Assembly: GCF_023208015.1 (NCBI RefSeq)
Contig: NZ_CP051627.1
Span: 868,001 to 932,000 of the forward strand
DNA length: 64,000 nucleotides
Reading direction: 5' to 3'
DNA from: Thermobifida alba
GTDB lineage: Bacteria > Actinomycetota > Actinomycetes > Streptosporangiales > Streptosporangiaceae
Shown: one piece after another, positions 240-45,787 of the stretch
Position numbering within the stretch: position 1 is the stretch's first letter
Layout of the letters: each line of letters starts with the position of its first letter
Position numbers and translations under genes: made by a program
The notes under the pieces: model-generated
Seen by the model: only the letters and a program-made list of their open reading frames with translations
Database searches by the model: none
What the model was told of the DNA's origin: nothing

Positions 240-785
240 GTGGACGGTTTCGACGCGGTGATCCTGGCGGGCGGGGCGGCGCGGCGGCTGGGCGGCGTCG
301 ACAAGCCCGGCCTGCGGGTGGGCGGGCGCGCCATGCTGGAGTGGGTGGTCGAGGCGGTGCACGAGGCCTCCGCGGTCGTCGTGGTGGGGCCGGCGCGTCC
401 CAGCCCGCCGGCCCGCTACGTCCGCGAGGACCCGCCCGGCGCGGGGCCGCTGCCCGCCCTGCGCACCGGCCTGGCCGAGGTCGGCTCGGCCTGGTTCGCG
501 CTGCTGGCCGCCGACATGCCGTTCCTCGACGGCGCTGCGGTGGCGGCACTGCGCGCGGCCGCCGCCCCCGGGGCCGGGGCCGTCCTGGTGGACGCGGAGG
601 GGCAGCCGCAGTGGCTGGCGGGGGTGTGGCGCACCGCGGCGGTGCGCGCCGCCGTCGCCGACTACGCCGGGAGTTCGCTGCGCGGCCTGCTCGCCCCCCT
701 GGGGCCGGCCCGGGTGGCGTTTGCGGAGGCCGCCCGGGACTGCGACACGCCCGAGGAGTTGGCGCGGGCCCGCCGCGACCGGTGA
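240..785 (+). CDS. mobA: Molybdenum cofactor guanylyltransferase MobA-like
   Basis: A 181-residue nucleotidyltransferase. The N-terminus carries L-A-G-G at residues 9-12 followed by R-R-L-G-G and K22, the signature that binds the GTP phosphates, and a central A-A-D-M-P-F-L motif supplies the metal-binding aspartate. Members of this family transfer GMP to molybdopterin to make the guanine dinucleotide cofactor of molybdoenzymes. The start is a GTG preceded by GGGAGCGGGAG. Length is slightly short of the approximately 190-200 residues usual for MobA. No other molybdopterin gene lies in the window, so the substrate assignment rests on motif similarity alone; related NTP transferases are possible. 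Confidence 0.75.
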   Translation: MDGFDAVILAGGAARRLGGVDKPGLRVGGRAMLEWVVEAVHEASAVVVVGPARPSPPARYVREDPPGAGPLPALRTGLAEVGSAWFALLAADMPFLDGAAVAALRAAAAPGAGAVLVDAEGQPQWLAGVWRTAAVRAAVADYAGSSLRGLLAPLGPARVAFAEAARDCDTPEELARARRDR

Positions 786-921: not shown

Positions 922-1040
922 CAAAAAGAAAAACGACGCCGGGTGGCTACGGGGGCAAACCACCCGACGTCGTGATCGGTGTTTCGACGGGGGCTCGAAA
1001 CACCGGTCTGTACGCCTCAGCGGGGGACTGAGGCGCTGGT
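922..1040 (-). ncRNA. Candidate small RNA with three C5-loop hairpins, 6C-RNA-like
   Basis: Read on the minus strand this is a complete small-RNA unit of about 118 nt. From 5' to 3' it has hairpin 1028-1035/1013-1020 (8 bp), hairpin 995-1005/977-987 (11 bp, perfect) and hairpin 960-973/933-946 (14 bp), each presenting CCCCC in its loop. The last stem is followed immediately by a T-rich run (932-922 on the minus strand), i.e. an intrinsic terminator. The one non-Watson-Crick position in that stem is U-G on the minus strand but A-C on the plus strand, which supports the minus orientation. The arrangement resembles the actinobacterial 6C RNA family (two hairpins with C-rich loops plus terminator), but here there are three loops and five Cs. 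No open reading frame fits. Confidence 0.7.
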
Positions 1041-1044
1041 GACT

Positions 1045-1076
1045 AATCTACACCGCTGTGCCCTAAATTACGTCAA
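1045..1076 (-). promoter_or_regulatory. Putative sigma-A promoter of the small RNA
   Basis: Minus strand TTGACG at 1076-1071 and TAGATT at 1050-1045. The gap is 20 nt, longer than ideal; TGTAGA starting two bases earlier would give 18 nt. Transcription would begin near 1038-1040, just before the first C-loop hairpin, and it lies clear of the tldE stop at 1258. Confidence 0.5.
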
Positions 1077-1257: not shown

Positions 1258-2661
1258 TCAGGAAGCCTGGCTCACCGACGACATGTTGAAATCCGGGACG
1301 CGCACCGGCGGCATCGCGGTCCGCGGGAAGTACTCGCCGAACTCGCGGGAGAACGTCGGAGTCGTCCGGCCGACCTCGCTCACCCGCTCCAGCAGGCTCA
1401 CCGGCGACTCGTTGAACCGGAAGTTGTTCACCGCCCCCCGCACCTCGCCGTCCTCGACCAGGTACACCCCGTCGCGGGTGAGACCCGTGAGGAGCATGGT
1501 CCGCGGATCCACCATCCTGATGTACCACAGGCAGGTCAGCAGCAGCCCCCGCTCGGTGGCGGCCACCATGTCGTCCAGGGACGCCGTCGCCCCCGGCAGC
1601 TCCAGGACCAGGTTGTCGGCCTCCGGCGTCAGCGGCAGCGCGGTCAGTGTCGCCGAGTCGTAGGTCTGCACCAGCCGCGCCAGTTCGCCGTCGCTGATCC
1701 ACTCGGTCGCGCCGACCGGTCTTCCGTTGTCGAAGGCGCTGATCCGCCGCCCCGGCGCGTCGGCCAGCACGAACGGCGCGCACTCCAGCCCGGGCTCGGC
1801 CGGGTCGGAACGCAGCCGCAGCGGCAGCGGGGACAGCCGCTCGCCCACCCGGGTGCCGCCCCGCGGCGAGGAGAAGGCCGTGCGCCCCTCGAAGGCGTCG
1901 CGCGCCCCCAGACCCCAGTACAGGTCGGTCATCAGGTCGGCGACTGCGGCGGGCGGCAGCAGCGTCTCGTAGCGTCCCGCGGGCAGCTCCACGGTGGTGC
2001 GCGCCCAGGCGATCCGCCGCTCCAGCTCGGCCTCCAGCGCCGCGACGTCGACGTCGGTGAAGTCGCGCGTGGCCTGACCCACCCAGGTGGAGTGGTGCGG
2101 GCCCTCGGACTTGGCGTTGAGGTCGAGGCTGCCGGACGGCTGGTCGTGGCGGAGCCGCAGCCCCGTGGAGGAGCCCAGGAAGGTGGCGGACAGCGAGTGC
2201 TGCGCGTAGCCGTACAGCCGCACCCCCGCCTGCACGGACCGTTGGAACGCCTTGCCCAGCTCCGGCGCGAAGTCGGAGAACACCCCGATGTCGGAGGCGG
2301 GGACCGGGGCGTCCCAGGCGCACGTGGAGCGGCCCGCGGAACCGGGGTCCGGCAGCGGGTGCGCCCCCTCGGCGGGCGCCGCCCCGCGCGCGGCCTCCTC
2401 GGAGGCGCGCACCAGTTCCTCCAGCTGGTCGTCGCGCAGCCCGCTGCGGGTCACCGAGCCCACCCGGACCCCCGCGGAGTCCGTCACCAGCGAGATCACC
2501 GTGACCGAGCGGCTCCGGGTGACCCCGTTGGTGGTCAGCGAGTTGTTGGCCCAGCGCAGGTTGGCCGTGCTGGTCTCGGTCACCAGCACCATGCAGTCGT
2601 CGGCGCGCGACAGCTCCAGCGCGCGCTCGGTCACGGCCTGCGCGGACAGCGACTGGCTCAC
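1258..2661 (-). CDS. tldE: TldE/PmbA-like metalloprotease partner subunit
   Basis: A 467-residue protein of the TldD/TldE (PmbA, peptidase U62) family, lacking the HExxxH site that is present in its neighbour, as expected for the TldE half of the heterodimer. TldD/TldE complexes of other bacteria trim linear peptides, including leader peptides of modified peptides such as microcin B17; they act in the cytoplasm. I chose the GTG at 2661 because GAAGGGA lies 7-8 nt upstream. An in-frame GTG at 2700 overlaps the tldD stop (GTGA) and would add 13 residues. The C-terminal G-A-V-N-N-F-R-F-N-E-S-P stretch is typical of the family. Confidence 0.85.
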   Translation of the reverse strand: MSQSLSAQAVTERALELSRADDCMVLVTETSTANLRWANNSLTTNGVTRSRSVTVISLVTDSAGVRVGSVTRSGLRDDQLEELVRASEEAARGAAPAEGAHPLPDPGSAGRSTCAWDAPVPASDIGVFSDFAPELGKAFQRSVQAGVRLYGYAQHSLSATFLGSSTGLRLRHDQPSGSLDLNAKSEGPHHSTWVGQATRDFTDVDVAALEAELERRIAWARTTVELPAGRYETLLPPAAVADLMTDLYWGLGARDAFEGRTAFSSPRGGTRVGERLSPLPLRLRSDPAEPGLECAPFVLADAPGRRISAFDNGRPVGATEWISDGELARLVQTYDSATLTALPLTPEADNLVLELPGATASLDDMVAATERGLLLTCLWYIRMVDPRTMLLTGLTRDGVYLVEDGEVRGAVNNFRFNESPVSLLERVSEVGRTTPTFSREFGEYFPRTAMPPVRVPDFNMSSVSQAS

Positions 2662-2696
2662 GGTTGTTCCCTTCGGTTGCAAGGAGTGCGCGCCGT

Positions 2697-4238
2697 TCAC
2701 GACCGGGCCTCCCGGGCGGTGTTGAGCACCCGCACCGCCTCGAACAGGGCGCTGGGACAGCCGTGGCTGACCGGGGCGACCTGTCCGGGCTGGCCCTTGC
2801 CGCAGTTGAACGCCCCGCCCAGCACGTAGGTCTCGGGGCCGCCCAGGGCGCGCAGCGAGTTCCAGAACTCGGTGGTGGTCGCCTGGTAGGCCACGTCACG
2901 CACCTGGTGGGTGATGCGGCCGTCCCGGATCCGGTAGAAGCGCTGCCCGGTGAACTGGAAGTTGTACCGCTGCATGTCGATCGACCAGCTGCGGTCGCCC
3001 ACGATGTAGAGGCCGTCGTCGACCTGGCGGATCAGCTCCCGGGTGTCGGGGCCGCGCGGGTCGGGCTGGAGCGAGACGTTGGCCATGCGCTGGATCGGCA
3101 TGGTCGCCGGGGAGTCGGCGAACGCGCAGCCGTTGGAACGCTCGTGGCCCGTCAGGTGCGAGATGCGCCGGTCCCGCTGGAACCCGGTGAGCACCCCCTC
3201 GGTCACCAGGGGGAACGACGAGGTGGCCACGCCCTCGTCGTCGTAGCCGATGGTGGCCAGGCCGTGCTCGACGGTGCGGTCTCCGGTGACGTTCATGATC
3301 TCCGAACCGTAGCGCAGCGAGCCGACCTGGTCGGGCGTGGCGAAGGAGGTGCCCGCGTAGGCGGCCTCGTAGCCGAGGGCGCGGTCCAGTTCGGTGGCGT
3401 GCCCGATGGACTCGTGGATCGTCAGCCACAGGTTGGACGGGTCGATGACCAGGTCGTAGACGCCCGGCTCCACCCCGGGCGCGGCGACCTTCTCGGCCAG
3501 CAGTTCGGGCAGCTCGGCGAGTTCGGCCTCCACCGTCGGCAGGTACTCCTGGCCCTGCCCCACCGGCGGGGAGAGGGTCCGCATGCTCTCCAGCCGCCCC
3601 TGGGCGGTGGACATCACCTCCACCACCGGGTGCAGGCGCACCCGCTGCTGGGTGGTCACGGTTCCGGCGGTGTCGGCGTAGAACTTCTGCTCCTTGGCCG
3701 CCAGCAGGCTCGCGTCGACGTGGTCCACCCGGGGGTCGGCCAGCAGGCGGCGGCTCCACTCGGCGAGCTGGTCGGCGGTGTCGCGCAGCGGGACCGTGAA
3801 CGGGTCGACCTCGTAGGAGGAGACCCACACGGCGTCCGGGTGGGCGGGTTCGGGGGCCAGCTCCACGCGGTCGCTGCTGAGCACCGACGCGAGCTTGGCG
3901 ACCTCGACGGCCTGCGCGGCGACCGCGGCGGCGGCGTCGGGGACCAGCTCCGTCCCCGCGGCGAACCCCCACGCGCCGTTGTGGACCACCCGCACCGCGA
4001 AACCGAGCGTGTCGGTCTCCTGGGCGGTCTCCACGGAACCGTCGGCCAGCACGAGGTGGCGGCCGCGGATGCGTTCGAGTCGGAAGTCGGCGTGGTCGGC
4101 GCCGAGGTCGCGGGCACGCTGCAACGCCGCGTCGGCGAGGGAGCGTAGCGGAAGGGAGAGGAATTCGGGATCGATTTCGCGCACGGTGGAAACGTAACGC
4201 GTTCTGCCGCCCCTGTCAGGTGAAGGCGGCCGATTCAT
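2697..4238 (-). CDS. tldD: TldD-like zinc metalloprotease
   Basis: A 513-residue TldD homologue. The zinc-binding HExxxH motif is present as H-E-S-I-G-H at about residue 270, followed by the conserved E-L-D and G-Y-E-A stretch, and the C-terminal G-A-F-N-C-G-K-G-Q-P-G-Q motif appears near residue 478. It would supply the catalytic site of a TldD/TldE heterodimer. The ATG at 4238 overlaps the upstream stop (ATGA), which suggests translational coupling. A GTG at 4184 is an alternative that better matches the usual protein start; neither has a strong ribosome binding site. No obvious modified-peptide precursor gene was seen beside it. Confidence 0.88.
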   Translation of the reverse strand: MNRPPSPDRGGRTRYVSTVREIDPEFLSLPLRSLADAALQRARDLGADHADFRLERIRGRHLVLADGSVETAQETDTLGFAVRVVHNGAWGFAAGTELVPDAAAAVAAQAVEVAKLASVLSSDRVELAPEPAHPDAVWVSSYEVDPFTVPLRDTADQLAEWSRRLLADPRVDHVDASLLAAKEQKFYADTAGTVTTQQRVRLHPVVEVMSTAQGRLESMRTLSPPVGQGQEYLPTVEAELAELPELLAEKVAAPGVEPGVYDLVIDPSNLWLTIHESIGHATELDRALGYEAAYAGTSFATPDQVGSLRYGSEIMNVTGDRTVEHGLATIGYDDEGVATSSFPLVTEGVLTGFQRDRRISHLTGHERSNGCAFADSPATMPIQRMANVSLQPDPRGPDTRELIRQVDDGLYIVGDRSWSIDMQRYNFQFTGQRFYRIRDGRITHQVRDVAYQATTTEFWNSLRALGGPETYVLGGAFNCGKGQPGQVAPVSHGCPSALFEAVRVLNTAREARS

Positions 4239-42605: not shown

Positions 42606-42737
42606 CCCCGGCACGTCCCGCCGGATGTGGCCGATCCCGCAGAGTCCCGGAAGGTCTCGGAGGAGCGGGCCGCTACCATGAGAGGTGCGGTGGACCGGAC
42701 TGCTGACCGGCCGCCGACAACCGGCCGTTGACACCAC

Positions 42738-42870
42738 ACGGGAGAGACTCCGCGCCGCGGAGCGCCGACGGGGCAAACCTCCCCAGCAACCTCTCAGGCA
42801 CCAGGGACCGTGTGGGACAGGCACTCTGGAGCACGGCGGCACGCCGACCGCAGGTGACAGAGGGGGAGAC
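42738..42870 (+). ncRNA. Glycine riboswitch, single aptamer with ghost-aptamer remnant
   Basis: The leader of gcvP carries the conserved glycine-aptamer elements in order: GGGAGAG (42740-42746), GCCGACGGGGCAAA (42763-42776), CTCTCAGG (42791-42798) and GGACAGG...CTCTGGAG (42815-42831). GGGAGAG pairs with CTCTC. After it, CAGGTGACAGAGGGGG (42851-42866) looks like the 3' half of a second aptamer, as seen in single-aptamer forms with a reduced partner. An AGGAGG ribosome binding site follows at 42903-42908, so glycine probably switches on gcvP expression. Confidence 0.85.
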
Positions 42871-42913
42871 CAAGGAGCACGCCGTACCCCGGCCCAGCGA
42901 CCAGGAGGTCTCC

Positions 42914-45787
<2,874 letters not shown>

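Follow-up and report, generated by a model that had tools for sequence, protein, structure and literature searches.

The window, as we call the whole 64,000-nucleotide stretch of Thermobifida alba DNA analysed here, carries tldE and a convergent mobA-like gene near one of its ends. Between them, on the minus strand, lie a predicted promoter and three hairpins tipped with CCCCC, the last of which is a predicted intrinsic terminator (Table 1). This arrangement had been pointed out in an initial annotation and is confirmed here. The annotation took it for a complete small RNA (sRNA) gene, and the predicted promoter and terminator, the covarying stems and the constant C-loops described below all support that reading.

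Table 1. Features of the putative sRNA gene and its neighbours, in window positions
Feature	Position	Strand	Basis and remarks
-35 element TTGACG	1071..1076	(-)	sequence; TTGA(C/T)N in 70 of 70 distinct order sequences
-35/-10 spacer, 20 nt, contains GGG, ends GGTG	1051..1070	(-)	longer G-runs in many relatives
-10 element TAGATT	1045..1050	(-)	sequence; TANNNT in 70 of 70 distinct order sequences
putative sRNA transcript, about 115 nt	923..1040	(-)	start about 1040-1037, end in the U-tract; deduced from promoter and terminator position
hairpin 1, loop CCCCC 1026-1022	1012..1036	(-)	predicted fold; compensatory changes in 4 of 9 helix pairs
hairpin 2, loop GCCCCCG, CCCCC 993-989	977..1005	(-)	predicted fold; compensatory changes in 4 of 11 pairs
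hairpin 3, intrinsic terminator stem, tip segment UGCCCCCGUA, CCCCC 955-951	934..972	(-)	predicted fold; compensatory changes in 5 of 18 pairs; tip segment the same in 70 of 70
U-rich tail of the terminator, TTTTTCTTTTT	923..933	(-)	sequence
tldE, upstream neighbour on the strand of the RNA	1258..2700	(-)	PF19289 and PF01523
mobA-like gene, convergent neighbour	240..785	(+)	PF12804

A simple consensus scanner run on the window called 0 promoters here, its spacer range being 16-18 nt against the 20 nt of this spacer. The promoter call rests on conservation in relatives. The scanner also missed the terminator of hairpin 3, and its sole terminator-like call (919-907) is a different, small hairpin. 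A small peptide encoded by the RNA was considered and rejected, as the length of the longest closed ORF inside the putative transcript is inconstant. It ranges from 0 to 32 codons in 70 sequences of the order, GTG and TTG starts counted, and is 18 codons in 28 of them.

The minus strand folds with a predicted energy of -67.3 kcal/mol against a shuffle mean of -33.3 (sd 3.38, z -10.06), and none of 200 shuffles folded as well. For the plus strand the predicted fold is less stable (-60.8, z -6.28). The initial annotation had reported a single wobble pair that fits only the minus-strand RNA. The strand was right, but the wobbles are several, with two in hairpin 1 and more in hairpin 3 of the predicted minus-strand fold. 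In the family alignment 136 wobble cells are G-U and 2 are A-C, and the RNA is therefore assigned to the minus strand. Of the three CCCCC-loop hairpins originally described, the layout and the U-rich tail of the last hold up, but hairpin 3 is predicted to pair one C of its CCCCC and to leave only CCCC unpaired.

Conservation of the locus is far beyond chance, with DNA matches in 57 of the 61 genomes of the family sample, the window's own genome counted. A covariance model (R1) was built from 30 loci of this sample. It matched strongly in 146 of 150 genomes of the order, a count that is a lower bound, like those for the class and phylum below, because large searches filter more strictly; 19 of the 146 had themselves supplied R1 sequences, and 4 carry a further, weak match. 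The four order genomes without an R1 match are G010, of the same family, and three of another family (f48). In the family alignment 99.6% of cells pair, and both-sided changes occur in 13 of 38 pairs (54 cells), which was reached by 0 of 500 shuffles; further pair types show no excess over shuffles (252/500). Alignment of the spacer between mobA and tldE had been proposed as a check, and it yields the covarying stems together with constant C-loops.

The promoter and the loops were compared in 82 loci of the order (the best-scoring of the searches, plus L151), which contain 70 distinct sequences. The -10 element is TACATT in 27 of these, TAGATT in 13, TACAGT in 12, TACGAT in 8, TACGCT in 7 and TAACAT in 3. 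The promoter spacer is 20 nt long in 69 sequences and 21 nt in one, and its longest G-run is at least 3 in 69 of the 70. Three C-tipped hairpins are present in every sequence. All three tips carry CCCCC in 69, and the remaining one has CCCC in two tips. The order-wide matches, the compensatory changes, the G-U bias and the kept promoter mark this, by sequence comparison, as a real RNA gene.

Relatives of the RNA were found well outside the order. R1 matches at least 49 of the 296 genomes of a class sample, 28 of these from the window's family. The loci of 18 of the 21 outside matches were fetched, and all 18 have DUF3099, tldE, a small ORF or moaA nearby. A two-hairpin model (R2) was then built from 36 sequences, 20 from the family and 16 from these 18 syntenic outside loci; L067 and L072 were excluded by hand because the second C-loop is missing, despite the synteny. 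Two further R1 matches, L082 (E 7.6e-4) and L085 (E 0.004), have no neighbour genes, were left out of R2 and are probably due to chance. Double changes are present in 17 of 25 pairs of the R2 core (86 cells), a level that 0 of 500 shuffles reach, and its covariation score of 0.351 exceeds the 0.072-0.140 obtained with slid structures.

At E up to 0.01, R2 matches at least 116 of the 296 class genomes. The matches outside the family number 88, in 15 families; 16 of them are model sequences and the weakest lie near E 0.008. The usual neighbours are present at all of 20 further loci, 19 taken from the R2 class matches and 1 from the order search. Another 13 loci, mostly weak matches, were read for sequence and kept outside the synteny counts. 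In a phylum sample at least 13 of 396 genomes matched. With 150 candidates scored per genome, R2 gave no match in G010, G029, G047, G053, G344, G345, G346, G063, G091, G086 and G107, and in G062 the best reached only E 0.099. A scan with a loosely defined terminator pattern produced at least 80 named loci, in genera that include Streptomyces, Kitasatospora, Streptacidiphilus, Embleya, Nocardiopsis, Nonomuraea, Microbispora, Actinomadura, Jiangella, Micromonospora, Actinoplanes, Dactylosporangium and Geodermatophilus. Of the 80 named loci listed, 78 match R2 at E up to 0.01 and 58 at 61 bits or more, a rate to be read with the fact that the scan pattern itself preselects the terminator.

The number of hairpins differs between lineages. 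Loci of the Streptomyces type have two C-loop hairpins, mostly with CCCCC and CCCCCC. In eleven loci, mostly of Micromonosporaceae, the terminator hairpin is the only one and follows a GTGTAC-like box; in all 11 the alignment of the small ORF starts 56-103 nt past the first base of the hairpin pattern. The hairpin described by the initial annotation as extra relative to 6C RNA is thus extra relative to the RNA's own two-loop and one-hairpin relatives instead. Alignment of 38 loci from beyond the family, 37 of which are also from beyond the order, shows at least five C and then GU in the terminator loop of 37 loci and CCCCC in the 5' hairpin part of 30. An additional upstream C5 hairpin is present only in L151, which is from the same order as the window; three others have CCCCC within 60 nt upstream, by eye outside such a hairpin. 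Because the terminator loop is kept in 37 of 38 loci, the terminator hairpin is taken as the constant module, and the other C-loops come and go.

In one family, f14 (L163-L169, L067, L148, L150), the 5' part has a G-run in place of the second C-loop. Upstream of the terminator loop there are at least four G in 10 of 10 loci and at least five in 8. The idea that this G-run is a built-in target mimic was dropped as a general explanation because 3 of 4 folded sequences place it on the 5' side of an ordinary hairpin stem. In the fold of L165 most of the G-run lies in a small loop and is not paired. Geodermatophilus, Modestobacter, Blastococcus and Klenkia have 10 loci (L194, L195, L198, L212, L219, L226, L233, L246, L247, L248) with a single near-identical C-loop hairpin directly after a TAGC- or TACC-type -10 box and without the usual neighbour genes.

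The place beside tldE and mobA, as given in the initial annotation, is the same in many relatives. The neighbourhood of tldE, DUF3099, the RNA, a gene for a small Cys/His protein and convergent mobA/moaA is shared by 68 of the 80 named loci listed. The fullest layout, a composite of several loci, is tldD, tldE, (tyrS, a GlsB-like gene), DUF3099, the RNA, the small ORF, and convergent mobA and moaA. The 12 loci without these neighbours nearby are L180, where tldD/tldE lie just past the distance limit, L189, which is probably a chance match, and the 10 single-hairpin loci of Geodermatophilus and relatives. The small ORF encodes about 75 residues with the motifs CxxxxC and CxxH (54 translations), and three such proteins have no Pfam or NCBIfam family above cut-off. 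The gene for this CxxxxC...WNNPKLHTPERRKTWLAC..H protein is found at L183:7455-7682 and at 53 other loci, mostly directly after the RNA.

In the window there is neither DUF3099 nor the small ORF between tldE and mobA, and moaA lies about 49 kb from the RNA. A search of the window's genome, run without a positive control, did not detect the small ORF, and it was also undetected at the locus of 4 genomes from the genus (L002, L004, L089, L092). In L133, L134 and L141 only about 15 to 56 nt separate the RNA from convergent moaA, with no room for the small gene. Because the small gene is undetected or has no room beside it, the RNA seems independent of a downstream gene.

Searches at the gathering scores of Rfam assigned the RNA to no family in the window, in 20 loci or in 11 named loci. 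The only match in the window is a glycine riboswitch (RF00504, 65.8 bits) at 42729-42820 (+), at the start of an ORF (42728-45787) that by eye reads like glycine dehydrogenase GcvP. A permissive search of 700-1300 returned mir-718, ar7, ncS01 and mgtE, all at chance level. The alphaproteobacterial sRNA ar7 (RF02342) has C-loops and aligns weakly to the minus strand over all three hairpins, but at 14.7 bits against a gathering score of 60 (E 1.7) this is a chance-level match. The predicted RNA belongs to an actinobacterial family that is unmatched by Rfam 15.

B11 is the mycobacterial form of 6C RNA. The resemblance of the present RNA to 6C RNA (RF01066) had been stressed in the initial annotation, which proposed a 6C covariance search of the minus strand. 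No 6C match reaches the gathering threshold of 47 bits in the window, and none appears in 700-1300 at E up to 10. The sole 6C match of the window's genome is at G000:C1:4096233-4096309 (64.6 bits), far from the window. Because there is no 6C match at the site and the genome's 6C lies elsewhere, the RNA is not 6C by the family model. What survives of the comparison is the general plan. Both RNAs are actinobacterial, with stable stems, a 5' C-loop hairpin and a C-loop terminator hairpin (here hairpin 3 with its U-tail), and both have one match per genome in the genomes searched. Passages of PMC8388888 describe 6C as two stem-loops of at least six C each, whereas the RNA in the window has three stem-loops of five C each and its relatives have loops CCCCCG on one to three hairpins. 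The surroundings also differ, with tldE, DUF3099 and moaA beside this RNA. The mycobacterial 6C gene is placed near the Ms1 RNA gene in part of PMC9569102.

Two C-rich-loop sRNAs of Streptomyces, scr5583 and scr1434, are likewise small and structured in the relevant passages of PMC3765725. By their naming they flank SCO5583 and SCO1434, whereas the Streptomyces-type relative of the present RNA lies by moaA, DUF3099 and tyrS. In S. lividans an Rfam scan gives 6C among other RNAs (PMC8079986, Table 2), and that table could not show this RNA because Rfam lacks it. No description of the RNA is present in the accessible portions of PMC3765725, PMC8079986, PMC11678152, PMC12395582, PMC9569102, PMC8388888 and PMC6789036, although an unnamed entry may stand in a supplementary table. 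Term look-ups gave no match in the indexed parts of PMC2422843, PMC4895711 and PMC4681348. There was also no description among the best-ranked literature matches (top 20 of 968, 20 of 701 and 15 of 920), and no pertinent literature was found for scr1818-scr1821, SCO1819 or SCO1820.

The analysis shows structure, strand, conservation, synteny, constant loops and a varying loop number. We consider it reasonably likely that the RNA is an sRNA acting in trans and that its C-loops, chiefly the one of the terminator, base-pair with G-tracts located at ribosome binding sites. We infer transcription, the targets, and the sign and outcome of regulation as follows. RNA polymerase would start just ahead of hairpin 1, as the conserved promoter implies, and would stop after hairpin 3 at the predicted terminator, giving an RNA of about 115 nt. 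Rigid stems would present three (U/G)CCCCCG(U/C) tips. A C-loop, the terminator loop first, could then base-pair to several mRNAs through G-tracts that lie at or close to their ribosome binding sites, and the pairing would block translation or trigger decay. The C-rich loop that is typical of C-rich-loop trans-acting sRNAs is conserved here (70/70, 69/70 and 37/38 in the sets above). In the portion of PMC12395582 that treats B11, its C-rich terminator loop is reported to bind G-tracts beside ribosome binding sites, as supported by compensatory mutants. Trans pairing is favoured because a loop of this kind is also the most constant part of the present RNA. From the relatives with one or two hairpins it seems that the terminator hairpin does the essential work and that the additional loops found in the order provide more binding sites.

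The neighbour genes were considered as targets and rejected. Within -60 to +15 nt of starts placed by alignment, some of the loci being duplicates, ACGGGGG is absent from 62 mobA, 43 moaA, 76 DUF3099, 36 small ORF, 18 GlsB-like, 3 tldE and 1 tyrS starts, and therefore no neighbour resembles a perfect-match target. The shorter GGGGG occurs at 17 mobA, 19 moaA, 2 DUF3099 and 10 small ORF starts and at 0 of the GlsB-like, tldE and tyrS starts. The target analysis covered these neighbours, since chance matches to a 7-base seed were judged too frequent across DNA of this GC content for a search of whole genomes.

A spacing of 20 nt between -35 and -10 elements is unusual for the main sigma factor. 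The fixed 20-nt spacer with its G-run suggests, as a feature of the promoter sequence, a possible activator site. In several one-hairpin loci the spacer is by eye about 19 nt long with GGGG.

CsrB-type RNAs titrate CsrA. The present RNA might similarly bind and titrate a protein specific for the repeated C5G hairpin loop, which we regard as unlikely. A near-identical loop presented three times on rigid stems and a hairpin number that varies from one to three between lineages are what such a function would lead one to expect. A candidate partner could be sought in the small CxxxxC...CxxH protein, whose gene is present at 54 of the 80 named loci listed and which belongs to no recognised family in the three cases searched. 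However, one hairpin is enough in the 11 mostly micromonosporaceous loci, and the RNA is retained in the window's genome, where the search without a positive control did not detect the small gene. Moreover, the C-rich terminator loop is the reported pairing seed of B11 in the relevant part of PMC12395582.

Less probable still is a cis-acting element, either one that serves the small downstream gene as a transcriptional attenuator or leader, or a mere terminator region behind tldE/DUF3099. The RNA does share its strand with tldE/DUF3099 and, where present, with the small gene in the loci that were laid out, and in L075 the start chosen by us for the small gene is a few bases past the terminator. 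A leader or attenuator would have a same-strand gene downstream in all members, but mobA of the window converges on the RNA, the small gene is undetected in this genome, and L133, L134 and L141 leave no room for it. A TAGACT box just before the small-gene start of Micromonospora L183 suggests, by eye, that this gene has its own promoter. The conserved promoter directly ahead of hairpin 1 also argues against a cis element, and a plain terminator has no need of constant loops in hairpins 1 and 2.

That the RNA is a diverged copy of 6C RNA is very improbable, for all the shared layout and the presence of one 6C match at E up to 0.001 in 10 of 15 RNA-bearing genomes (8 over cut-off), since the 6C model finds nothing at the RNA locus, R2, at E up to 10 and after a candidate filter, finds nothing at the genome's own 6C locus, the loop is CCCCCG against UUCCCCCC in the window genome's 6C, and the neighbours differ.

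With trans pairing as the preferred reading, a broader proposal can be put forward tentatively. The RNA may represent a second, 6C-independent form of C-loop regulation across much of the actinobacteria, in which a mostly synteny-locked RNA uses the CCCCCGU terminator loop as a fixed seed. The loop number (one, two or three) would be a lineage-specific dial for the number of mRNAs held at once, and the fixed 20-nt spacer would imply a dedicated activator. To our knowledge, sRNAs that occur across several actinobacterial families are few, and we know of no Hfq-type matchmaker in actinobacteria. The covariance model is supplied for annotation where Rfam 15 has no match. If the proposal is true, a widespread second C-loop RNA exists whose one-, two- and three-hairpin versions form a natural comparative series. 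Such a series would allow a test of how the range of targets depends on the number and the sequence of the loops in GC-rich genomes that are rich in G-tracts.
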